Shown here: positions 52,974 through 64,000 of the stretch, in pieces
How positions within the stretch are numbered: position 1 is the first letter of the stretch
Layout: each line of letters starts with the position of its first letter
Origin: Selenomonadales bacterium
Lineage (GTDB): Bacteria > Bacillota > Negativicutes > Sporomusales > UBA7701
NCBI GenBank assembly: GCA_029975165.1
Contig: JARKPR010000035.1
Coordinates: 62,001 to 126,000, forward strand
Length of the DNA: 64,000 nt
Reading direction: 5' to 3'
Position numbers and translations under genes: made by a program
The notes under the pieces: generated by a model
Database searches by the model: none
Told to the model about the DNA's origin: nothing
Seen by the model: the letters and a program-made list of their open reading frames with translations, nothing else

Positions 52974-53070
52974 GGGGGCGGAGGGGGCCTGGTGGCTCCT
53001 GCGGTCTTCAAAACCGTTTGCGGGGTGCTAACCCATCCCGGGTGGGTTCGATTCCTACACGCCCCCGCCA
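52974..53070 (+). tRNA. selC: tRNA-Sec (anticodon UCA)
   Basis: 97 nt including CCA. Acceptor GGGGGCG (52974-52980) pairs with CGCCCCC (53060-53066), discriminator G, then encoded CCA (53068-53070). The anticodon arm CGGT-CTTCAAA-ACCG places TCA at 53008-53010, which reads UGA. A long variable arm (GCGGGGTGCTAACCCATCC region) and T arm GTGGGTTCGATTCCTAC follow. The length and UCA anticodon identify selenocysteine tRNA, consistent with the Sec codon in grdA. Upstream, TATAAT at 52902-52907 and four near-repeats of ATGCCAG precede the gene. Its 3' side borders a foreign AT-rich segment. Confidence 0.95.
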
Positions 53071-53100
53071 CAGTAAAATCAAGGCTTATGGGGTTTTTAT

Positions 53101-53173
53101 AAATGGAAGTAATAAATGGCCGTTCGGCCAATTATTACTTCCATTTGTGTTTGGTCAATTAATACTTCCATAT
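53101..53173. repeat. Three copies of a 21-bp repeat downstream of selC
   Basis: Copy 1 (inverted) AAATGGAAGTAATAAATGG at 53101-53121; copy 2 GGCCAATTATTACTTCCATT at 53126-53146; copy 3 GGTCAATTAATACTTCCATA at 53153-53173. Copies 1 and 2 face each other across 4 bp with one mismatch. Clusters of 20-22-bp repeats in this arrangement resemble transposase (TnsB) binding sites at the ends of Tn7-like elements. The stretch 53174-53298 holds nothing else recognisable. Confidence 0.55.
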
Positions 53174-53298
53174 AAAGCGATAAAGTCTACTGGCCATTGA
53201 TGGATTGTATAGGATAATATACCAGTAATGAATATGGGGGAGTGAATTTTTATTGGAGGGACAAAATATTCTCAAGAATACAAATATTGAGTAGAAGA

Positions 53299-53982
53299 AT
53301 GAACAATAATAGCTATAGTACACTTTACAAAATTGAGCCTATTGGGTTTGGTACTGCTTATGTTGAATCATTAACAAGCTATATTTATCGGCTTTCACGT
53401 GAACACTGTGTGAGCGCCGGAGACATTTTGTCCGATGTAATTACTCCGGTGACAGGTAAAGCATATTTAACTAATGGGTTTCAAAGATCTTGCGATCCGG
53501 TTTATAAAAATTCTTATAAAATTAACGGAATGGATCAAGAAGCTAGAGATTTTGTAAGTGCTTTACAAGAATTAACTCACGTCAATTCATTAGAATTTTT
53601 GACATTGCTACCTCTCAATTGGCTACCAGCTAAAGGAATGATAAAACCTTTTCAGTCTTGGTGTCCACTGTGCTATGAGGAATGGTCATCCACAAAACAG
53701 CCGTTATATACTCCGTTGATATGGAGTATTATTCCCGTAACATTTTGTAATCGTCATCAAGTTCCCTTAGTGAATAGTTGTCATAAATGCAATAAAAAAA
53801 TCCTCTATCTCTCCCGAAACGGACGAATTGGTTATTGCCCCAATTGCGGCGCATGGTTAGGACAAGAATACAATGATGTTGCGTACAGCGCATTTTTTAC
53901 ATATGATCAATGGGCTTCTGAAAAAGTCGCTCTAATTATTGAGAAGTGCAAGAAAGCTGCCTCAAGAACCGTAAATTTATAG
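53299..53982 (+). CDS. TniQ/TnsD-family target-selection protein, probably truncated
   Basis: 227 aa from ATG 53299 (frame open from 53242). It starts LYKIEPIGFGTAYVESLTSY, the typical TniQ opening, followed by SREHCVSAGDIL and zinc-finger pairs: WCPLCYEEW, FCNRHQVPLVNSCHKCNK and GYCPNCGAWLG. TniQ proteins guide Tn7-like transposases to a chosen site. The reading frame ends soon after the second finger, shorter than most TniQ/TnsD proteins, and its last codons overlap an ATPase fragment, suggesting an internal deletion. It lies right beside selC and reads away from it. AT-rich, unlike the core genome. Confidence 0.8.
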   Translation: MNNNSYSTLYKIEPIGFGTAYVESLTSYIYRLSREHCVSAGDILSDVITPVTGKAYLTNGFQRSCDPVYKNSYKINGMDQEARDFVSALQELTHVNSLEFLTLLPLNWLPAKGMIKPFQSWCPLCYEEWSSTKQPLYTPLIWSIIPVTFCNRHQVPLVNSCHKCNKKILYLSRNGRIGYCPNCGAWLGQEYNDVAYSAFFTYDQWASEKVALIIEKCKKAASRTVNL

Positions 53983-54650
53983 CATTTTGCATTGATGAGG
54001 CGCAACATATTTTTAAAGGAATTCGTCCAGACAAATTTTTGCATCAGTTCGATATTGTGAAAACACTAGTGGAAAAAACTCAAGTCGACCACATATTATT
54101 CGGCGTATATGACTTAATAAATCTGATCCACATTAGTGGACAGATGACCAATAGAACCAAAGTCGTGCACTTTTCAAGATACATGCCTGAGAATATTACA
54201 TACTTTCAGGAGGCGCTATCTGCATTGCGGAATGTACTGCCAATAGAATCCGACATTTTTGAGGATATTTATCTTGAGTATTGTTACAACCAAACGATCG
54301 GGTGTGTAGGAAGTTTAAGTAAGTGGCTTACAACCTCACTAAACACAGCCTTGAGGGCAGGAGATAAACAATTGACTATCCATCACTTAAAGCAGCATGC
54401 TCTATCAAAAAGGGATGTTGCCACATTATTGGCTGAAGCTCAACGAAACGAGAAAAAAGTCGAAGCCTTACTAGAAAAGGCCGATTTTAATGACTTCGAC
54501 AATAATATAAGGCAGGGTGCAATTAGTATAGAGAATTTGAAGAGTGATAATGCGAGAGTGCATAGTAAACATACACCTTTCCAGAGAACCCCTACCCGGG
54601 ATGAAACGGGAGGATACTTTAAACGAAACACAGGGACTGATAAGGAGTAA
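53946..54650 (+). pseudogene. TnsC/TniB-like AAA+ ATPase lacking its N-terminus
   Basis: 234 codons. Near the start stands a Walker B segment, FIAFCIDEAQHIFKGI, followed by DHILFGVYDLINLIHISGQM (sensor 1-like) and the TniB-type lid (VGSLSKWLTTSLNTALRAGD, LTIHHLKQHALSKRDVATLL). The Walker A half that must precede it is absent, and the first codons overlap the tniQ frame, so tniQ and this gene look fused by a deletion. A tail of about 60 polar residues follows. In Tn7-like systems this ATPase links target protein and transposase; this copy cannot bind ATP normally. Confidence 0.72.
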
Positions 54651-54692
54651 GTCTAACACAATAGATAACATTTCGGAGGTGTATAAACTAGT

Positions 54693-55220
54693 ATGGCCAT
54701 TGTAAACGATGTACTCGTTGAAGAATATATCCGCTTATCTGAGAAATTGGAGTTCTACTCGATTAAGAAATCAGATGCCCCCCTCAAAATCATGGTGGAA
54801 ATAAAAAAGGATATAGACTTTATCGAGAAGGCCTTTGCTGCGAACAACATCGATCTAGCTCAAGAAGTTGTTTTAATGCAAATAAATGAGTGTGAGCGAG
54901 ATAGGAGGAGAAAGAAACAAAATTATGAGAGTACCGAATCTCCAGAAAGGAAGAACGAGCCCCAAAAGGGATACCGAGAAGAAATGAAAAAGGCCTCTCA
55001 GGACTTGCGCTTCATGCAAGATTGTAACGATGTCATGAAGCACTTCTCGCAAGCAGACGAAGAGGTATTAGCTAAGCCAGGGACTGACAGGAGGGATTCT
55101 TGTGAAAGTATTTTGGACGAAAGAAAAGATCAACGATTTCCTGAGGGCAAATTATCCCCTAAGCTGACTAGCTCGGCCCAAAAGATGAGTCCGACGGGCA
55201 CCAGGAACAAAATGAAATAG
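54693..55220 (+). CDS. Unknown protein of the Tn7-like remnant, coiled-coil
   Basis: 175 codons, GGAGGTG upstream. The first 70 residues are helical (MAIVNDVLVEEYIRLSEKLE, KDIDFIEKAFAANNIDLAQE), followed by a highly charged, Lys/Glu-rich stretch (ERDRRRKKQNYESTESPERK). No family recognised. The last 25 residues lie in the edge of an IS481 relic, so the natural C-terminus is lost. Same strand and spacing as the tniQ and ATPase genes, hence likely an accessory component of that element. Confidence 0.5.
   Translation: MAIVNDVLVEEYIRLSEKLEFYSIKKSDAPLKIMVEIKKDIDFIEKAFAANNIDLAQEVVLMQINECERDRRRKKQNYESTESPERKNEPQKGYREEMKKASQDLRFMQDCNDVMKHFSQADEEVLAKPGTDRRDSCESILDERKDQRFPEGKLSPKLTSSAQKMSPTGTRNKMK
55102..55167 (+). 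pseudogene. 5' stub of a further gene cut by IS481
   Basis: GTG 55102 sits 7 nt after GGAGGG and opens MKVFWTKEKINDFLRANYPL, then stops where the IS481-derived sequence begins. The good ribosome site and protein-like start suggest a fourth gene of the element, truncated after about 20 codons. Confidence 0.4.
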
Positions 55221-55606
55221 CAACTCATACTAACTAGCGCCAATAGTTTTCTAAGCGGGGTGCCCTCCCCCGCTTTGTTACGGTAGCCCAGATGCGGCCT
55301 TTCGGTGTTGTAGTCGACCAACCAGGTATCCAGGTCTTCCTGCAGAGCCTCGACTGTCTCGTAGAACTTCTCCCGGAATACGATCCGGAAGAATTCATCC
55401 AGCGCCGTCAGGTTGAACCGTTCAACGAAGCCATTGGTTTTGGGATTTCGCACTTTTGTCCGCCGGTGTTCAATGTCGTTAAGCGCCAGGTAAAGCTCGT
55501 AGGGATGAGTTTCCCGCCCGCAGAATTCGCGTCCGTTGTCCGTTAATATGGCGCCTACAGCTAGTTTCTTTTCTTGATAAAACGGCAGTGCTTCGTTACG
55601 TATTGA
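55215..55606 (-). pseudogene. IS481-family transposase fragment
   Basis: Minus-strand frame with the C-terminal part of an integrase core: AILTDNGREFCGRETHPYEL, HRRTKVRNPKTNGFVERFNL, then LVDYNTERPHLGYRNKAGEG. The second Asp and the Glu of the DDE triad (TDNGREF and NGFVERF) are present, the N-terminal HTH and first Asp are not. The flanking 55140-55214 and 55607-55670 look like remaining IS ends. GC-richer than its surroundings. Inactive. Confidence 0.8.
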
Positions 55607-55737
55607 ATATCGGGAGTATCCCACAATCTGTGTAAACGCAAGATTGGCGCAAAACAACAGAAATTTTCAGGGGGCAGATCAGCCGGTATGGTTGGTTTGT
55701 CCTTGCTAGCATTATTGAAAAGGTTTTGGCTGTCAAG

Positions 55738-56163
55738 CTAGTCGAGCCTGTCAGCAAAGAATATTTCCAGTTGGGAATGGATTTGGCTCCAGTCCTGGCG
55801 GCAGCCTGTCCATTTTTTCGTAATATCGAATCATCGCCAGGTACAGCATTTTTAGCAGACTGTCGTCCGTCGGGAAAATCGATTTGGATTTCGTTACCTT
55901 ACGAAGTTGACGGTTAAAACTTTCAATCGCATTGGTGGTATAGATCAAGGTTCTGCCTTCATGCGGGTATTTAAAATAGGTGGATAAATTGGCCCAGTTG
56001 GCCCGCCACGACAAAGCGATCTTCGGGTATCTCTTGCTCCATTTTTCATCGAAGGAATCAAGCTGGTAGGATGCCGTCTGCTCATCTACGGCGGTATATA
56101 CCTTCTTCAGATCGGCCATCAGCTCTTTGATATCCTTGTAGGAGATAAACCTGGGTGAATGAC
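55738..56163 (-). pseudogene. IS256-family transposase fragment with frameshift
   Basis: Minus strand: VRHSPRFISYKDIKELMADL, KVYTAVDEQTASYQLDSFDE, WRANWANLSTYFKYPHEGRT, LIYTTNAIESFNRQLRKVTK are the conserved C-terminal half of IS256/mutator transposases. After LLKMLYLAMI the frame slips at an A run; the other frame continues with KKWTGCRQDWSQIHSQLEIF to a stop at 55738. The N-terminal half, with two of the catalytic acids, is gone. The junction at about 56163 joins it to an unrelated plus-strand coding end. Confidence 0.85.
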
Positions 56164-56290
56164 GCACTGCTGGTGCGACGTGACCACCGGTGAAGTAGTC
56201 TCGATGGTCCGGGAGGCCATCCGCCGCGGTGAGCAGGCCATGGCTGGGGAAGCCAAGGCGAACGGCGCGGTGCATCAGGATGCGGAATAA
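56159..56290 (+). pseudogene. 3' end of a GC-rich gene truncated by IS256 sequence
   Basis: A 43-codon frame ends DVTTGEVVSMVREAIRRGEQ, AMAGEAKANGAVHQDAE and a TAA. Its codon choice is that of the GC-rich core genome and unlike the AT-rich neighbours, so it looks like the surviving tail of a chromosomal gene. The first seven codons are at the IS256 junction. Product not recognised. Confidence 0.4.
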
Positions 56291-56594
56291 AAGGTAATTA
56301 AAGAGTAGTACATAAGTGACCAGTATTCGCAGGAGGTTTTATCAAAAAGGTGACAAAATAGGAACGTCCCTTTCGTTACTCTTTCGTTACCTTTATGGCG
56401 GAGTTAAATTAATTTGCGATTTTTACCGGATTGGAAAACAACACCCGTATATCAACATGTGTACAGGTGTTGTTTTTTTATTCGCCCGAAATGGGCGGTT
56501 ACTATAGGGTGAAAATCCCGAACGGGCCTGGTTAACGCACAGCTTATGAAAAGCAGGGGCTTAGAGCGGCTAGCCATCAGATAAATACAAAAGG
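56291..56594. other. Intergenic region with a terminator and possible group II intron debris
   Basis: AACAACACC (56437-56445) pairs with GGTGTTGTT (56466-56474), followed by TTTTT, an intrinsic terminator on the plus strand. Beyond it, 56490-56580 contains GGGTGAAAATCCCG, AACGGGCC and CTTATGAAAAGCAGGGG, reminiscent of domain I of bacterial group II introns but too short to be sure. No gene seen. Confidence 0.4.
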
Positions 56595-58427
56595 TTACTC
56601 ACTCAGTCGCATATACACCAATGTGCAAAATACGCCGTCCTTGGCGCTGAACCTTGCCGCGCCGCCGTATTTTCGCGCAACGGCAGCGACTGAGGACAGT
56701 CCCAGGCCCTCTCCCTCTTGCTTGGCGGAAAGGAATATGCCGTCTCTCTCCCGCAGCTGCCCGGCAAAGCTATTCTCCACTGTGAGCGTCAAGCGGCCGT
56801 ATTCCAGGCAGCTGTTCAGCCGGATGAAGCGTTCCCCTGCCGTCATGCGCTCACAGGCTTCTACCGCGTTTTCTAACAGATTGCCGACCAAGATGCACAA
56901 ATCGCTTTCCAGCATTTGGTCAAGTTCGCTGGGAATGGTAAAGAAAAGCTCTGTTGTAATACTCGCGGTTTTGGCGGTAGCAGCGTAATGGGTGGCGACT
57001 GTGTTTACCGCATAGTTTTCGCACAGCCGGATGTCTTTGTCTGCAGGTACCTGCCTGATTAGCGAGTCTATATATGCACTCAGCTTTCCCAGATCACCTT
57101 GTTGGCCCAGCCCCCGCAGGACGGCAAGATGATGGCGGATATCATGCCGCTGCGCTTTCACCGCTGCATTGTTTTCCTCCATTTTGCGGTATTGCTGCCT
57201 TTGCTGTGCCAACTGGCGGGTAGTGGCGGCTATCTTGTATTCTAGACGCGTTTTTTCCATAGCCGTGCGCAGCGACTGACGCGCATACAGGCCGCTGATA
57301 ATAGCGAGGGAAATGACAAAGATCCATATACCGAACTGAAAGATAACCGTCAGCAAATTGGTCAGACGCAACCAGTAATTGAGCACCTCCATCACCATAG
57401 CTGCCGCCAGCGGAATTACTGCGGGAGCAAACCACTTTGCCGCCGGATTCTGGCACCGGAAATGGTCCCACACAAGGCTGACGGCGAATGCCACAAACCC
57501 CAGTGGCATAATGACGTGAAACCAGTACAGGCTCCTGATAAAATCCATTTTGCCGATGAACTGCAGTATCAGAGCGACGGCTATGGCGGTATAATGCACC
57601 CACAATATGATCTGGAGCGGCCATCTGCCTTTATGACTTAGAATCACCAGTCCGAAGCGCAGGAGTGGAATGGTAAAGAGAAACAGTCCCATATAGTCCA
57701 TGTTATACAGCAATACAGGGTATGGCAGTAGGAAAGCGCTCAGTTCGCACTCTCCCAGATCCCATACGCCAACCGACAGGGAAAACAGTCCCAGCCACAA
57801 AAGGGACGAGCCGGAGGCATCCTTAAACAGGAACATCAGGGATAACAAGCTAAGGGCCAGTCCAAGGAAAATCAGGATGATAGAAAGCAATAGCGTAAAA
57901 CCGTCAGTGCGGACTTGATCGGCCAAAAGGGCCGCCTCAGTGCCCGCCGCCAGCGCCGGCACCGACAGTGTGCTTCGCTGTGTTGGCGACAAATATTCCG
58001 CCCGCAGGTCAACCGTCCCCGCATAGCCAGCCAGCGGCACAATAGTCAGTATGGCCGGCGGATCATTCATATAGGCTGGATAGCTGCCGGGCTGTCCGGT
58101 TTCCAGTATCAAAGCCCCGTTCACATACAGCCGCAAGGGTGCAAATATCGCCTTAATCAGCAGGCTGTCGCCGTGATTTACTTCCGTTTGCGCCGTCAGG
58201 ACAACCAGGCTGCGGGGCGCGAGGTTGTCAAGCTTGGCAGGCAGGCTGATGGCGGCGGGTTCCTGGCCGTTAATCTGTACTGTCATGCCGGTGACCGGGC
58301 GTGGCTGTTCCTGATAGGCTGAGGCAAGCGGCTTGTACGGCAGGGAAAACCATACCAGCGCAGCCAGCGTCGCCGCCAGCAGGATAACAGAGAGGGCGGC
58401 TATTGTTTTTGACTTTGTTGTGGTCAT
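56595..58427 (-). CDS. Membrane histidine kinase (7-TM, SpoOB/GHKL type)
   Basis: 610 aa. Anchor helix (about 9-29), extracytoplasmic beta-rich domain (about 35-175; QINGQEPAAISLPAKLDNL, APLRLYVNGALILETGQPG) resembling the 7TMR-DISM extracellular type, seven transmembrane helices (about 180-400), a coiled linker, the DHp motif KAQRHDIRHHLAVLRGLGQ with the phospho-His, and a GHKL ATPase with NLLENAVEACER and GEGLGLSSV. It is coupled to a LytTR regulator whose stop overlaps its ATG (ATGA). The AgrC-like kinase half suggests peptide or small-molecule sensing; no agrB/agrD-like gene is visible. Confidence 0.88.
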   Translation of the reverse strand: MTTTKSKTIAALSVILLAATLAALVWFSLPYKPLASAYQEQPRPVTGMTVQINGQEPAAISLPAKLDNLAPRSLVVLTAQTEVNHGDSLLIKAIFAPLRLYVNGALILETGQPGSYPAYMNDPPAILTIVPLAGYAGTVDLRAEYLSPTQRSTLSVPALAAGTEAALLADQVRTDGFTLLLSIILIFLGLALSLLSLMFLFKDASGSSLLWLGLFSLSVGVWDLGECELSAFLLPYPVLLYNMDYMGLFLFTIPLLRFGLVILSHKGRWPLQIILWVHYTAIAVALILQFIGKMDFIRSLYWFHVIMPLGFVAFAVSLVWDHFRCQNPAAKWFAPAVIPLAAAMVMEVLNYWLRLTNLLTVIFQFGIWIFVISLAIISGLYARQSLRTAMEKTRLEYKIAATTRQLAQQRQQYRKMEENNAAVKAQRHDIRHHLAVLRGLGQQGDLGKLSAYIDSLIRQVPADKDIRLCENYAVNTVATHYAATAKTASITTELFFTIPSELDQMLESDLCILVGNLLENAVEACERMTAGERFIRLNSCLEYGRLTLTVENSFAGQLRERDGIFLSAKQEGEGLGLSSVAAVARKYGGAARFSAKDGVFCTLVYMRLSE

Positions 58428-59158
58428 GTTTTGCCGCCTTTTTCCTTTAGCTTGCGCAACAGATAATTCTCGTAGGCTTCAGACGCTTGCTTCATACTCT
58501 GATGACGGATATACACCCTGTCTCCGTTGTGCATAGTGAAGATTTTTTGCTCCCAGTCAAGGCTTTTCACATGCTTTAGATTGACAATATAGCTTTGGTG
58601 GCAGCGCAAAAAGTATTGCGGCAGCAGGGGTTCGATGTGTCTGAATTTTACCGTCTGGCTGGTTCTGAGTGTGCCTGACAGTGTCTTGACGATGGCGGCA
58701 CGATTCTGTTGTTCAAAATACAAGACACTGTCCAACGGAATGTCCCGGTACTCGCCCCCTATGAGCAGCTGGATATAAGCGGCGGTCTTGCGTTTTTCTT
58801 GTGCAATGCTCAGAACGTCAGCTACTTCTTCCGGCATGACCGGCTTTTCGATATATTTCGGCGCGTTCAGCCGGTAGCTTGCCAGCGTATGCTCGGTACT
58901 GGTGGTGGTAAAGACAAGCGTCACCGCCGTATCTGTCTCACGGATTTTGGCGGCGGCATCAATTCCTAGCAGTCCGCTCATATAAATGTCCAGAAAAATC
59001 AAATCATATCGTCCTGTTTGATGTGCCGCCAGCAAAGCTTCACCGGAGGAAAAGGTCTCATATTCGACAGGTATGGTGCTTGCAGTCATGCAGGAAAGCA
59101 GGTGGGACATATCCTGTTCGTTATCTTCGCAAACGGCAACTTTGAGTGGTGTGGGCAA
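58424..59158 (-). CDS. LytTR-family response regulator
   Basis: 244 aa from the TTG at 59158, six bases after GAGGTG; the upstream extension to 59209 lacks a site. Receiver domain (LKVAVCEDNEQDMSHLLSCM; phospho-Asp in YDLIFLDIYMSG), then a LytTR DNA-binding domain (LDSVLYFEQQNRAAIVKTLS, FLRCHQSYIVNLKHVKSLDW). Partner of the kinase encoded directly downstream with a 4-nt overlap. Targets unknown; the TpsB-like gene is transcribed divergently some 400 bp away. Confidence 0.9.
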   Translation of the reverse strand: MPTPLKVAVCEDNEQDMSHLLSCMTASTIPVEYETFSSGEALLAAHQTGRYDLIFLDIYMSGLLGIDAAAKIRETDTAVTLVFTTTSTEHTLASYRLNAPKYIEKPVMPEEVADVLSIAQEKRKTAAYIQLLIGGEYRDIPLDSVLYFEQQNRAAIVKTLSGTLRTSQTVKFRHIEPLLPQYFLRCHQSYIVNLKHVKSLDWEQKIFTMHNGDRVYIRHQSMKQASEAYENYLLRKLKEKGGKT

Positions 59159-59559
59159 AACGGTCACCTCACAGTATAGTATAGCAGAAAACAAATTATA
59201 TTTCGTCAACGTAAAGTATGATAAAAGGCAATTTATTTTTTGGAATCATATATTCGCATCATTGTCAAGTGTGAAACTCACTGGATATCCAAGCGTTTTC
59301 GTCGCTGGACACGCCGATAACTTCTCTGCATAATTTAAAGCAGAGAAGATAGAGAAGATGCTGATACTGTCAAAAGGATGTGATTGCCAACAATCAAGCC
59401 GTGATCGACGAGTTGAACAACGTGACCAAGAAAGGAATAAAGCTAGTTTACGTTATTGGAAAATTATTTACGCATTTGAGAAAAAATAAGCTGGCTGATA
59501 TTTTGTAATAAGTAAAGTTATTACGATCTAGCAGTGATAAAAAAAGGTATGGTAGTACT
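59159..59559. other. Divergent intergenic region with a hairpin
   Basis: AT-rich. CTTCTCTGC (59321-59329) pairs with GCAGAGAAG (59340-59348). A decayed coding fragment at 59386-59463 is listed separately. No LytTR-type direct repeat pair could be assigned with confidence. Confidence 0.4.
59386..59463 (+). pseudogene. Fragment of a second metallophosphoesterase gene
   Basis: The frame reads ANNQAVIDELNNVTKKGI then KLVYVIG, aligning with ARNNQIVIDELNKVMHAGIK and LVYVIG of the intact protein at 61623 (about residues 132-158). Identity at the DNA level is only moderate, so it is the relic of a paralogue, not a recent copy. It runs on as GKLFTHLRKNKLADIL to a stop. Confidence 0.65.
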
Positions 59560-61038
59560 ATGAAATTAGCAGCGTACACAAAAATCTATCGACAGATACA
59601 AAAAGTTATTATCCTTCCTGTAGCAACTGTTTTACTAGCACAAGGAGCGGTAGGGTATGCAGATCCCGTTGCGGTTGCACCGCCTGATGTTGAAAGTGTC
59701 CTGCGTGTCACTCCTCCAGACAAGGCGATAGTTCCCCGGGAGAATCCGAAAGTTGGTGCTACCCCTAACGAAAATCCACCAATTATTGGCGATATCATAC
59801 TAATAAACAATTCTGGAATTAATGATGCTGTTATCCGTCTTCAGATGGACGCTCTGAAACCGGGTGACTACATAACTGAAGCCAAGCTGGAGCGTTCCTT
59901 GCTATTGATCAATGACCTGGCGGGTGCCAGGGCTAAAATTACTCCGAAGCCGGGCAAAGAAGTCGGCACCATCGACTTGATTGTGGAGATAACACCGGTT
60001 AAGAAACTTGCTAATTTCGCACTTAGTATGAACAACGTCGGCAACGCAGAGTACGGTACTAATCAAATCGGTCTGGCGGGGGGCTTTAGCAACATTAGCG
60101 GAATTGGCGACAAGCTGTCTTTTAGAAGCATAACCACTGGTCAGGATTTGGGTGGCGCCATCTTGGTGTATCAAAGGCCGGGATTCACTTCGGGCAGTCA
60201 ATTCATCTTCTATACGTTCAAACTTCGCTACACGCTCGGCGGACAACGTAGCTACCTTAATGCCTACGGCGCCGTCAATGGTATTCATGCCGGTTGGAAC
60301 TACTACTTGCATCGGTCACGCGATTTCAACCTCCAATTTCAGTCAGGTTGGGAATACAAGCAACGGCAAGATACGATAAATCTGATTCATCAGGAAGCCG
60401 ACAAAACAATGCATAACGTTATTGCCGGATTGGTTGGTGACAGCAATGATAGTTGGGCCGGCGGCGGTAATAACAGCTTTTCCATAATGTACAATAAGGG
60501 CCGATTAATTATGGATACCGGCTATGCGCAATACGCAGATACCCAATATCAAAGTGCGGGCGATTTTGATCGCTGGAAATATAGTTTTATTCGCCAGCAG
60601 TATATTGCCAAGCGACTTAGCGGAACATTCTCTTTTAACGGCCAATATACCGACAAAAACCTGGAGATATCCCAACAACTGGCTATGAGTGGAATTAATG
60701 GAGTACGAGCCTATCCCCAGGGTGAAGTGTCCGGTAACAAGGGGTGGCTGGCTAGATGTGAAGTAAAGTGGGCTATGACACCCAGCCAAAAAGGGCGAGA
60801 ACAATGGCAACTTGTTGGTTTTTATGATGCCGGTAAGGCGGAAATCAATGCGAAACCATGGCCTGGTGTTACCGATAACAGCATCTTTCTGCGCGGTACC
60901 GGTATCGGTATCAATTGGAATGATCCAGGCAAGAGGTCGATAAAAATCTCCTATGCTTGGAAGGTAGGGCATGTGCCGGCTAAATTCGCTACGAATGCCA
61001 AGGGCTATCTGTGGATACAGACAGTGAGCTACTTGTAG
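59560..61038 (+). CDS. ShlB/FhaC/TpsB-family outer-membrane translocator with one POTRA
   Basis: 492 aa. Signal peptide (KVIILPVATVLLAQGAVGYA), a Pro-rich linker, a single POTRA-like domain at about 75-150 (GDIILINNSGINDAVIRLQM, GDYITEAKLERSLLLINDLA) and a 16-strand barrel of alternating residues ending with aromatic-terminal strand GYLWIQTVSYL. The TpsB/Omp85 motif V-R-x-Y appears as GINGVRAYPQGEVSGNKGW. Typical TpsB proteins have two POTRAs and about 550 residues, so this is short. It secretes a partner TpsA protein; no such gene is seen nearby. Its presence requires an outer membrane. Confidence 0.82.
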   Translation: MKLAAYTKIYRQIQKVIILPVATVLLAQGAVGYADPVAVAPPDVESVLRVTPPDKAIVPRENPKVGATPNENPPIIGDIILINNSGINDAVIRLQMDALKPGDYITEAKLERSLLLINDLAGARAKITPKPGKEVGTIDLIVEITPVKKLANFALSMNNVGNAEYGTNQIGLAGGFSNISGIGDKLSFRSITTGQDLGGAILVYQRPGFTSGSQFIFYTFKLRYTLGGQRSYLNAYGAVNGIHAGWNYYLHRSRDFNLQFQSGWEYKQRQDTINLIHQEADKTMHNVIAGLVGDSNDSWAGGGNNSFSIMYNKGRLIMDTGYAQYADTQYQSAGDFDRWKYSFIRQQYIAKRLSGTFSFNGQYTDKNLEISQQLAMSGINGVRAYPQGEVSGNKGWLARCEVKWAMTPSQKGREQWQLVGFYDAGKAEINAKPWPGVTDNSIFLRGTGIGINWNDPGKRSIKISYAWKVGHVPAKFATNAKGYLWIQTVSYL

Positions 61039-61312
61039 AGTGTGTTTACTCGGCCATTTCCAATAGCATTATCAGCGGACTGTCCCTGGTTGCCCTTTTG
61101 CTTTGCTCCGGTTTCAGTTACTGGGTGGCGCGCTCGATCGTCAAATCGGTGGGCTTGGTCACCAATGCACTGGGGGAGGATGCCAACGGCAGTTTGAGAG
61201 TGCAGGAATTGGATATCGCGACAACCAATGAAATGGGTAAACTGGCGGTTTGTAGATACCATTTCCGGCATCGCCGGTCAGACAAATTTTCTTGCCCTTA
61301 ATGCCGCTCCGC
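61036..61312 (+). pseudogene. Chemoreceptor (MCP) scar with internal deletion
   Basis: The frame after the TpsB-like stop reads IISGLSLVALLLCSGFSYWV, ARSIVKSVGLVTNALGEDAN, TTNEMGKLA: a transmembrane helix and HAMP. Then, out of frame, [19 protein letters not shown] at 61252-61308 is the tip of a signalling domain. Some 250 residues between HAMP and tip are missing. It is what is left of a methyl-accepting chemotaxis gene. Confidence 0.75.
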
Positions 61313-61393
61313 CTCCACCATGTAAATCCGGAATAGCCAAAAAGCTTGGTAGGGTTCGGGTACCTCCACCAGCCAAAACCGGATATATGGGGA
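61308..61393 (+). repeat. Direct repeats CCTCCACCA...CCGGA (two upstream copies; third at 63129)
   Basis: CCGCCTCCACCATGTAAATC (from 61308), GGTACCTCCACCAGCCAAAA (from 61367) and TCGCCTCCACCATCCAAATC (from 63129), each continuing into CCGGA. They bracket the metallophosphoesterase gene. GGTTCG precedes two of them, giving a resemblance to the T-arm and CCA end of a tRNA. Confidence 0.5.
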
Positions 61394-61622
61394 AGATCGG
61401 ATTAATGATACAAAAGAACCGTCCCCGTGCATCCGGGAATTCTCAAAGGTATGAGCGAACAGGCATAGAGTATCTATCATGAAGATATTGGCGGTTTTAC
61501 CGTCAATAGGTATTGAATTTGCAATCAATGGTTTTTTACATCAAACTGTGATTGACAGGGGGGAGCGGGACGATGAGCCTGTCTCCTTGCCCATCCTATC
61601 CAGACAAAGGGGGAAGCAAGCT

Positions 61623-63014
61623 TTGACAAGAGTAAGCGGATTATCCAGACGGGAGTTTTTGAAAAGGGCGGCTATGGGGGGGCTGGCTCTGACGACAAGT
61701 GCAATGGCCGGTTCATTTTTATTTACCGACAGTGCTGCGGCTGCGGGGTTGACAGCCGGGCGAGATATACAGCCGCTGTGGCAAGCCGGTAGCCGCAAAA
61801 ATAAAATTGTTGTCGTAAGTGATCTGCATTTTGGTATTGACGATAGTTTTACTGAGACTGTACATAACAGAGAGCTTTTTGTTAAATTTTTGCAGAAGCT
61901 GCAGCAGACGACAGACGTAAGAGAACTGGTTATTGCCGGTGATTTTCTTGATGAATGGTTTTTGCCGCTGGATTATGGCCCGGTAAATGATTTACAAGAA
62001 TTCTTTTTCCAGGTAGCGAGGAATAACCAGATCGTTATCGATGAGCTTAACAAAGTGATGCACGCAGGCATCAAGCTGGTCTATGTCATAGGCAACCACG
62101 ACATGAATATGGATGCCGGAATATTGGGCAGCCTGTTGCCTGGAATTATCGAGATACATGATGCGAAAGGGGTTGGAAGATATATCACCGGAGATCGCGA
62201 GGAAATTGTCATCGAGCATGGCCATCGTTATGACCCTTATTCAGCCCCTGATCGGGTATCAAACCGGGAGCTATGTAAGAGTGATGCCACGATGTACCCG
62301 CCGGGCTATTTTTATGCTCGCATGGGGGCTAGTTGGGTCATGGAGCATAAGCCAAAGATAAAAAAGAACTATCCGGTGATTAATAATGTTCCTGATTCAA
62401 CGAATACGGATCAAATGGGAGCTTATGTGTATGCCAAATTATTGGAGAAGTTATTTAACAGGATTACAGAAAAAAGCAGCTTTGAGGATAAAATATTTAC
62501 GGTAAATACCTGCGGCTTCCATGGCAGCTATTCATTGAAGGATATGTACCCGGTGGAACAGTCTGACGGCACGATTTCCGCACCGGTATTGTTCCGTAAT
62601 TTCCAGCGTTCCTGGGAAGAACGGCAGGAAATGAATGACGTGTGGGTTAAGATTCCGTTTTTGGAAGCGGGAGCTGGCGCTTTGTCACCCAAATATTTTT
62701 ACGGTTGCGCTGGGAAACAATATTTGGATGGCAAGGATGCTTCCTATGATGTTGTAGTGTTCGGGCATACGCATGTTCCGGAGTTCCAGCAGAATGGAAA
62801 GAAATTTTATGTCAATTCAGGCACTTGGGTAGATTCCAATTCCAATTATCCAACAGCCACTAGAACATTTGTGGTAGTAGAAACGGGAGCTGTGGACAAT
62901 GCCGTTTTGTATGAATATAGGCAAGACGGTTCTCTGAATGATTTATCCTTACAGGTGGGGTCAGTTGCGGCGAACCGTGCCACTGGTAATGGCGAAGAAT
63001 GGCATAAAGTTTGA
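61623..63014 (+). CDS. Tat-exported calcineurin-like metallophosphoesterase
   Basis: 463 aa from the TTG at 61623, nine bases after AAAGGGGG; the frame is open from 61479 but without a ribosome site. The N-terminus MTRVSGLSRREFLKRAAMGG is a clear twin-arginine signal, cleaved near ADSAAAAG. Metal motifs: VVSDLHFGIDD, VIAGDFLDEW, YVIGNHDMNMD, VIEHGHRYDP and VVVFGHTHVPEF, the full D-x-H, G-D, G-N-H-D, G-H-x-H set. It is a periplasmic or surface phosphatase/phosphodiesterase folded in the cytoplasm before export. Flanked by short direct repeats. Confidence 0.88.
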   Translation: MTRVSGLSRREFLKRAAMGGLALTTSAMAGSFLFTDSAAAAGLTAGRDIQPLWQAGSRKNKIVVVSDLHFGIDDSFTETVHNRELFVKFLQKLQQTTDVRELVIAGDFLDEWFLPLDYGPVNDLQEFFFQVARNNQIVIDELNKVMHAGIKLVYVIGNHDMNMDAGILGSLLPGIIEIHDAKGVGRYITGDREEIVIEHGHRYDPYSAPDRVSNRELCKSDATMYPPGYFYARMGASWVMEHKPKIKKNYPVINNVPDSTNTDQMGAYVYAKLLEKLFNRITEKSSFEDKIFTVNTCGFHGSYSLKDMYPVEQSDGTISAPVLFRNFQRSWEERQEMNDVWVKIPFLEAGAGALSPKYFYGCAGKQYLDGKDASYDVVVFGHTHVPEFQQNGKKFYVNSGTWVDSNSNYPTATRTFVVVETGAVDNAVLYEYRQDGSLNDLSLQVGSVAANRATGNGEEWHKV

Positions 63015-63170
63015 TGCTAGAGCATTTGTCATTAAGCTTGGTCAGAAAATCACCGTAAGGCAGGATACAAAGGGAAGGTTCTTTTGTGTTATTTTGCCTC
63101 CCAATTAGGGTGGATTTGCAAGGTCACGGTTCGCCTCCACCATCCAAATCCGGAATTCTGACAATTTCAA

Positions 63171-63210
63171 CAAAAAACCTTCTTTGCCAGCCCTGGCAGA
63201 GAAGGTTTTT
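63171..63210 (+). terminator. Intrinsic terminator
   Basis: AAAAAACCTTCTTTGCCAG (63171-63189) pairs with CTGGCAGAGAAGGTTTTTT (63192-63210), then GT. Upstream 63015-63170 contains a short frame ending VRQDTKGRFFCVILPPN that I cannot place. Confidence 0.85.
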
Positions 63211-63564
63211 TGTCGTCTTTAGCGAAGAAAAAGCTTGCAACGATACGGGAAGCGAGTTAGATGACGACATACGCTCCGAGAGAAAAAACTGCGAAATCTG
63301 GTTATAGAAAAGATTAAGGAAAAGTTTCCTGAATCAAATGTTGATGACGTTAAATTTAGTGTGGTAACATTTCCTGATGACGAAAAGAGATGCCAGTTAT
63401 GAACCTAAGGAGAAGAAATAGACCTGAACGAAGCCAGTAATACTTGGTTTAGAAAGTATGGTTGGGATGGTGCTAAAATTCATAGCCATTTTGACAATAT
63501 TGAATTGGTTTGGGATCCTCAACCCCGCTTTACATCAGGGTTGAATGGACTTTACTTAAATTGA
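63211..63564. other. Decayed coding pieces, not recognised
   Basis: Plus-strand fragments VIEKIKEKFPESNVDDVKFS (ending near 63402) and NTWFRKYGWDGAKIHSHFDN, ELVWDPQPRFTSGLNGLYLN (ending at the TGA at 63562-63564) are protein-like but in different frames with stops between. No family recognised; possibly remains of small element-borne genes. Confidence 0.35.
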
Positions 63565-64000
63565 TAATTTCGGCGAACCGAAAAAGAGAGTCTGCCAATT
63601 ATCGAATGTATGCAATAAAAAAATGATCTGGTGGACAGAGATTTATCCATTCGGTAACTAAAGATTTATTCCTTATTCAACAATTTATAAATCAGGAGAT
63701 TCTTCAAAAATGCCATCCTCATTCTTCCTCTTTTGCCTTTCATTCCGCTGGTGGAATTAGAAAAGTGCATCAGTACACTGCGGTGCGAAATGGCTTTTCC
63801 AATTTGACCTTACCGATTTTTTTTACGATGTTACCGAAATTGATGTGTATCAAGTTTTCAAAGCAATGGGATATCGAAATTTATTGTCTTTTGAACTCGC
63901 GAGGTTGTGTACAACTACCCGCCTACCACGAGGCCAGAAACGACTTCTTTCACATAATGATGGGGGTTATGGCGATTTCCCATATTCTGAGAAATTTGGC
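63565..64000 (+). pseudogene. Reverse transcriptase, frameshifted, running off the window
   Basis: Three plus-strand frames join into one protein: ISANRKRESANYRMYAIKK, then SGGQRFIHSVTKDLFLIQQF, CHPHSSSFAFHSAGGIRK, then ASVHCGAKWLFQFDLTDFFY, DVTEIDVYQVFKAMGYRNLL. These match reverse-transcriptase blocks: K-K-S-G-G-x-R, S-F-A-F-H-S-A-G-G-I, and K-W-L-F-Q-F-D-L-T-D-F-F with the first catalytic Asp, followed by a LARLCTTTRLPRG segment. Frame changes near 63624 and 63766 make it non-functional unless the sequence has errors. The spacing is retron-like or defence-RT-like rather than obviously group II. The catalytic YxDD block lies beyond the edge. Confidence 0.72.

Follow-up and report, generated by a model that had tools for sequence, protein, structure and literature searches.

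The selC locus and its empty counterpart

The DNA examined here is a stretch of 64,000 nucleotides (hereafter the window), in which the tRNA-Sec gene is followed at once by the left end of a Tn7-like element that continues beyond the last base of the window. The features at this junction are as follows.

52974–53071, + strand: selC (tRNA-Sec) with an encoded CCA, the attachment gene (ARAGORN; Rfam RF01852, 75.5 bits)
53081–53097, + strand: selC terminator, 5′ half only (AAGGCTTATGGGGTTTT), split by the insertion, as judged from intact hairpins (AAGGCTTCCGAGG..CCTCGGAAGCCTT) in relatives
53093–53097, unstranded: first copy of the target duplication GTTTT; the second copy, 64882–64886, lies outside the window
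53098–53171, unstranded: left end, with terminus TATAAAT, a palindromic pair of sites and a third site (site offsets as in genomes G101 and G102; architecture scan; folding)
53098–64000, + strand: window part of the Tn7-like element (both ends homologous to those of the intact G102 element; same target duplication on each side)

An initial annotation of positions 52974–55220 had described three repeats 3′ of selC. These were confirmed (about 20 bp each; chance alone would give 0.04 matches in the window), except that the first copy (53103–53121, +) faces the opposite way from the second and third (53126–53144 and 53153–53171, both −). Genome-wide, these three are the only strong copies. They are not native selC flanks: three congeneric genomes (G001, G002 and G004) have a whole terminator hairpin after selC (for example AAGGCTTCCGAGGTTTTTACCTCGGAAGCCTTTTT) and lack the repeats; in the window the hairpin ends after its first half and the repeats start there. 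We predict from their sequence and arrangement that the three repeats are the transposase-binding (TnsB-type) sites of the left end.

Before insertion, the selC site would have read ...CTTATGGGGTTTT, followed by the 3′ half of the terminator. This distal half was not found anywhere in the assembly, and its place is taken by an older left end and then NRPS genes. GC content is 39–51% in the element versus 58–64% in its flanks. A second copy of selC lies outside the window in the same genome (L039:10777-10872; G000:C3:52777-52872), 62 kb upstream; its flanks differ from those of the first copy, and transposon-end sites are absent from its vicinity.

Both ends of the element and its target duplication

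The full element spans 53098–64881 (11,784 bp), with its right end 881 bp past the end of the window; the segment first annotated covers just the first 2.1 kb of its 11.8 kb. The left terminus lies 27 nt after the selC CCA, within the selC terminator. Left-end sites sit at offsets 0(−)/+23/+50, exactly as in G101 and G102, and this pattern of an inverted pair plus a direct third site scored 41–51 in eight genomes (background ~39 or less), with a score of 51 for the window.

The proposal that matching sites and a 5-bp duplication should be found at the far end was borne out beyond the window. Right-end sites lie at 64729, 64759, 64835 and 64858 (L018, just beyond the window; the fourth is weak), in the same order as in G102 and with the same spacings of 30 and 23, giving arrays of three left and four right sites spaced as in G102. 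A site matrix trained on the G101 and G102 sites alone gave its highest ranks across 100 kb to the end sites of this element (reversed-sequence control maximum 10.8), and chance sites at 55976 and 58422 fell among the weaker top-ranked matches. After the right terminus, which reads ...TTCACA, comes GTTTT, and the identical pentamer stands just before the left terminus. When the termini were tested for TGT...ACA, the right one had ACA and the left one TAT, versus TGT in relatives.

Directly after the second GTTTT lies another palindromic left end (64887–64933, TGCAAAGGGAAGCATAAAATGGTCAATTGGCC...), whose site sequence differs from that of the first. The two left ends share the same base position at selC, and the simplest reading of the distal one directly after the duplication is that selC has been used at least twice. 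The distal end probably stems from an older insertion and breaks off at NRPS-like genes (recognized by eye; L018 from ~960, G000:C3:126960 on). Genome G761 has a like tandem of ends at ssrA, the tmRNA gene. In G929 (L094:10127-10977), two ssrA genes stand in tandem with a transposon-end-like sequence after each; this is probably a tandem insertion, and it looks as if an element or tandem insertion brought its own tmRNA gene.

Core genes fused by a deletion, and decayed cargo

The genes and gene remnants inside the element are listed below.

53242–53982, + strand: remnant of tniQ/tnsD that retains only the N-terminal TniQ core (PF06527, E = 3.9e-17; probable ATG start at 53299)
53884–53952, + strand: deletion junction, where the C-terminal part of tniQ, the complete tnsA/B fusion gene and residues 1–156 of tnsC have been lost (alignments and tblastn against intact TniQ, TnsAB and TnsC)
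53946–54650, + strand: tnsC/TniB remnant, C-terminal half, with Walker B (CIDEAQH) and without Walker A (PDB TnsC 8fcu_Q, E = 1.3e-23)
54693–55220, + strand: ORF of 175 aa, possible cargo (no convincing family; no relative in intact elements)
55130–56275, − strand: two transposase fragments, an rve_3 integrase core (55130–55657) and a Mutator-family fragment (55751–56275) (Pfam)
56595–59209, − strand: cargo, GHKL sensor kinase and LytTR response regulator (Pfam)
59560–63014, + strand: cargo, ShlB/FhaC-like outer-membrane protein (59560–61038) and Tat-type metallophosphoesterase (61479–63014) (Pfam, NCBIfam)
~61228–61301, + strand: possible chemoreceptor fragment (by eye)
63680–64000, on to 64546, + strand: frameshifted pseudogene of a retron-type reverse transcriptase, of which the window has the start (RVT_1; RT_III-A, E = 2.6e-72; reading frames)

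A TniQ-type gene next to selC and a TnsC/TniB-type ATPase lacking its Walker A half had both been recognized in the initial annotation, and both hold. The TniQ remnant retains ~205 of the 406–443 residues of intact relatives (39–40% identity over residues 13–205) and matches TnsD in the PDB (8v32_J, E = 1.1e-41) and TniQ_IB in PADLOC (E = 6.8e-33); in a TniQ tree it falls among the upstream-TniQ group, with a support of 0.06 for its exact placement. The TnsC remnant aligns from residue 141/157 of its relatives (G101, G102 and G004 compared) at 31–36% identity. No TnsAB remnant was found in the element, and none of this lineage in the genome at 1e-20. Alignment with intact relatives upholds the suggestion that the tniQ-ATPase overlap is a deletion fusion: a single deletion, which we put at ~3.9 kb from lengths in G102, took away the end of tniQ, the entire gene for the transposase and the N-terminal half of tnsC. 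Because these parts are gone, the element is dead. As for the two further same-strand genes once described here, one is evident (54693–55220, no relatives found) and the second is not.

The internal deletion, the IS fragments and the broken retron-type reverse transcriptase show later decay. No Cas domain was seen in the element ORFs scanned, in an element whose deletion leaves room for one earlier. A short dispersed motif resembling CCTCCACCANNNAAANCCGGA has three copies in the element (61312, 61363 and 63134) and one beside the right end of its counterpart in G004 (L017, ~15330). Elsewhere in the same genome, contig C34 (L016:10457-17934) carries another, distinct set of Tn7-like genes, in which a TnsD of 672 aa and a TniQ of 335 aa accompany TnsA-, TnsB- and TnsC-like genes.

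Intact relatives reside at ssrA

The window TniQ had matches in only three other genomes of the class. Intact sets of tniQ, a tnsA/B fusion and tnsC lie behind ssrA in G101 and G102, and the G102 element has TGTGACT...AGTCACA termini and an ATAGA duplication in the ssrA terminator. A TnsAB alignment used as query recovered more members in several Bacillota groups, giving thirteen relatives with tniQ–tnsA/B fusion–tnsC in other Bacillota genomes (the G781 set is partial). The TnsA-TnsB fusion was seen in G101 by Pfam and is alignable over its full length in G102, G004, G430, G752 and G761; the window's own gene is deleted. Against the PDB, the relatives' proteins matched TnsAB (9bw1, E = 2e-299), TnsC (E = 3e-103) and full-length TnsD (E = 2e-72). 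Relatives of the window tnsC were absent from viral contigs, with one weak match in genome contigs; two cyanobacterial plasmid matches also turned up.

Wherever the left end was located, it adjoined ssrA (9/9: G101, G102, G430, G752, G761, G783, G929, G938 and G1000; not located in G004, G781, G1033 and G1189). In eight of these the terminus lies 28–32 nt past the CCA (the exact terminus is uncertain in G929), compared with 27 nt at selC. Their target duplications include ATAGA, GCTAC, TAATG and ATTTT, and ATGTG in G761. Upstream of the left end in G761 (L062), the T-loop of ssrA is apparently broken by an intron-like insert, suspected to be group I.

No intact member of the lineage was found at selC. 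The initial annotation had suggested that this lineage targets selC, with homologues of its tniQ at sites unrelated to selC counting against the idea. The tniQ homologues do lie elsewhere, with all nine located relatives beside ssrA, and the lineage is no selC specialist. The insertion at selC in the window nevertheless stands on direct evidence: the two ends of the element, its target duplication and another left end at that very point.

What was inserted at selC

We conclude that the window holds a dead Tn7-like transposon of a TnsA/B-fusion lineage that homed to selC (probability about 0.9). The Tn7-like origin first proposed for the remnants is supported by homologous ends, the 5-bp duplication, TniQ and TnsC homology, and empty sites in relatives. 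A more complicated history, which we consider unlikely yet worth keeping in view, is a composite island: at least two tandem Tn7-like elements at selC, with a deletion fusing the left part of one to the right part of another and the matching target duplications arising from repeated use of the site. Tandem insertion did occur, since a further left end follows directly, and it is seen again in G761 and probably in G929. The left-end sites (ATTACTTCC) are also unlike the right-end sites (TATGCTTCC). However, the intact G430 element alone displays the same left/right difference (TTTTACTTC on the left, TATGCTTCC on the right), and one deletion within one element accounts for the tniQ-tnsC junction.

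That the element came down near selC through untargeted transposition or another target pathway, the tRNA gene being coincidental, strikes us as improbable. Two points favour it, the truncation of the selector gene and the absence of intact relatives from selC, but a distance of 27 nt is close to the relatives' 28–32 nt behind ssrA, and the same base position was used by two left ends. We give very little credence to the repeats being native selC flanks, or to an ordinary tyrosine-integrase island with tniQ and tnsC as unrelated debris. G001 and G002 apparently have an integrase-type gene behind selC (by eye), so the site may attract other islands; against this, the relatives lack the repeats, the ends match those of the ssrA Tn7-like elements in both spacing and sequence, and the scanned ORFs of the element yielded no integrase gene.

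How selC may have been chosen

For a transposon homed to selC, the probable first step was binding of a full-length TniQ/TnsD-type protein to the 3′ end of selC. This protein would then have recruited TnsC and the TnsAB transposase, and the transposase would have inserted the element into the terminator loop, 27 bp downstream of the CCA, producing the 5-bp GTTTT duplication. The lost C-terminal part of TniQ may have read the selC sequence, and the insertion point is presumably fixed by TnsD-type binding at the 3′ end of the RNA gene. The terminator loop was struck at selC, in G102 and in G430 because it lies at the insertion distance. Insertion into a terminator was rejected as a general rule, as G752 and G783 have no obvious spanning hairpin by eye, and distance is the better rule. 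Likeness to ssrA was likewise rejected as the cause of selC targeting: in a ranking of 27 tRNA genes from part of the element's own genome by 3′-end similarity to ssrA, selC came tenth, behind tRNA-Tyr and tRNA-Ser.

The left end folds at −31.0 kcal/mol in the window (z −8.2) and at −32.4 in the distal copy (z −6.7), compared with −14 to −22 at ssrA, and this hairpin could now serve as the selC terminator. More broadly, and only tentatively, there may be a Bacillota-wide, CRISPR-free TnsAB family that homes to tRNA-like RNA genes (ssrA, selC) and inserts 27–32 nt past the CCA, often in the gene's terminator, with the left-end hairpin replacing the terminator that is split. If true, insertion would do no harm to an important RNA gene.

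With the present element, selC joins the landing sites of Tn7-like elements, as does ssrA by way of the intact relatives. The literature searched contains no report naming either gene as a Tn7-like attachment site, and cyanobacterial work on the lineage (PMC9881144) may list them. The intact ssrA-homing sets, with their exact ends and duplications, are directly testable as protein-guided insertion systems, and comparison of TnsD C-termini could reveal how recognition moves between RNA genes.

Comparison with known Tn7-like systems

Like Tn7, which homes to glmS with TnsABCDE, the lineage combines TnsD-type homing downstream of a conserved gene with a 5-bp target duplication and arrays of ~20-bp sites; Tn7 differs in its separate TnsA and TnsB and in its target. 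A further difference is that the two inner left-end sites of the window lineage oppose the terminal one.

We take PDB entries 8fcu, 8v32 and 9bw1 to be TnsAB, TnsC and TnsD structures of the type I-B2 CAST PmcCAST (Tn7744). These are the closest solved proteins to the relatives' TnsAB, TnsC and TnsD, and the window's TniQ and TnsC remnants match the same entries. PmcCAST targets tRNA-Val, whereas the target here is selC and that of the relatives ssrA; moreover, no Cascade or cas gene was seen here, in a copy that has suffered a deletion, or among the relatives' core genes. Type I-B2 and I-D CASTs share a fused TnsAB and a tRNA-targeting TnsD (PMC11406308), and homing by the type I-D CyCAST inserts 30–33 nt downstream of tRNA-Leu (PMC10293859). 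CyCAST thus resembles the present lineage in its TnsAB fusion, in TnsD homing and in a distance near the 27–32 nt found here, but it carries a type I-D CRISPR system and its target is tRNA-Leu.

Because its proteins are closest to the 8fcu/8v32/9bw1 set, whose TnsD homes to tRNA genes, the window element is, by homology, a predicted new member of the tRNA-homing TnsAB lineage, related to the I-B2 and I-D CASTs and with selC as a putative new target. A Bacillota group that has no visible CRISPR parts is thereby tied to the lineage behind the type I-B2 and I-D CASTs.
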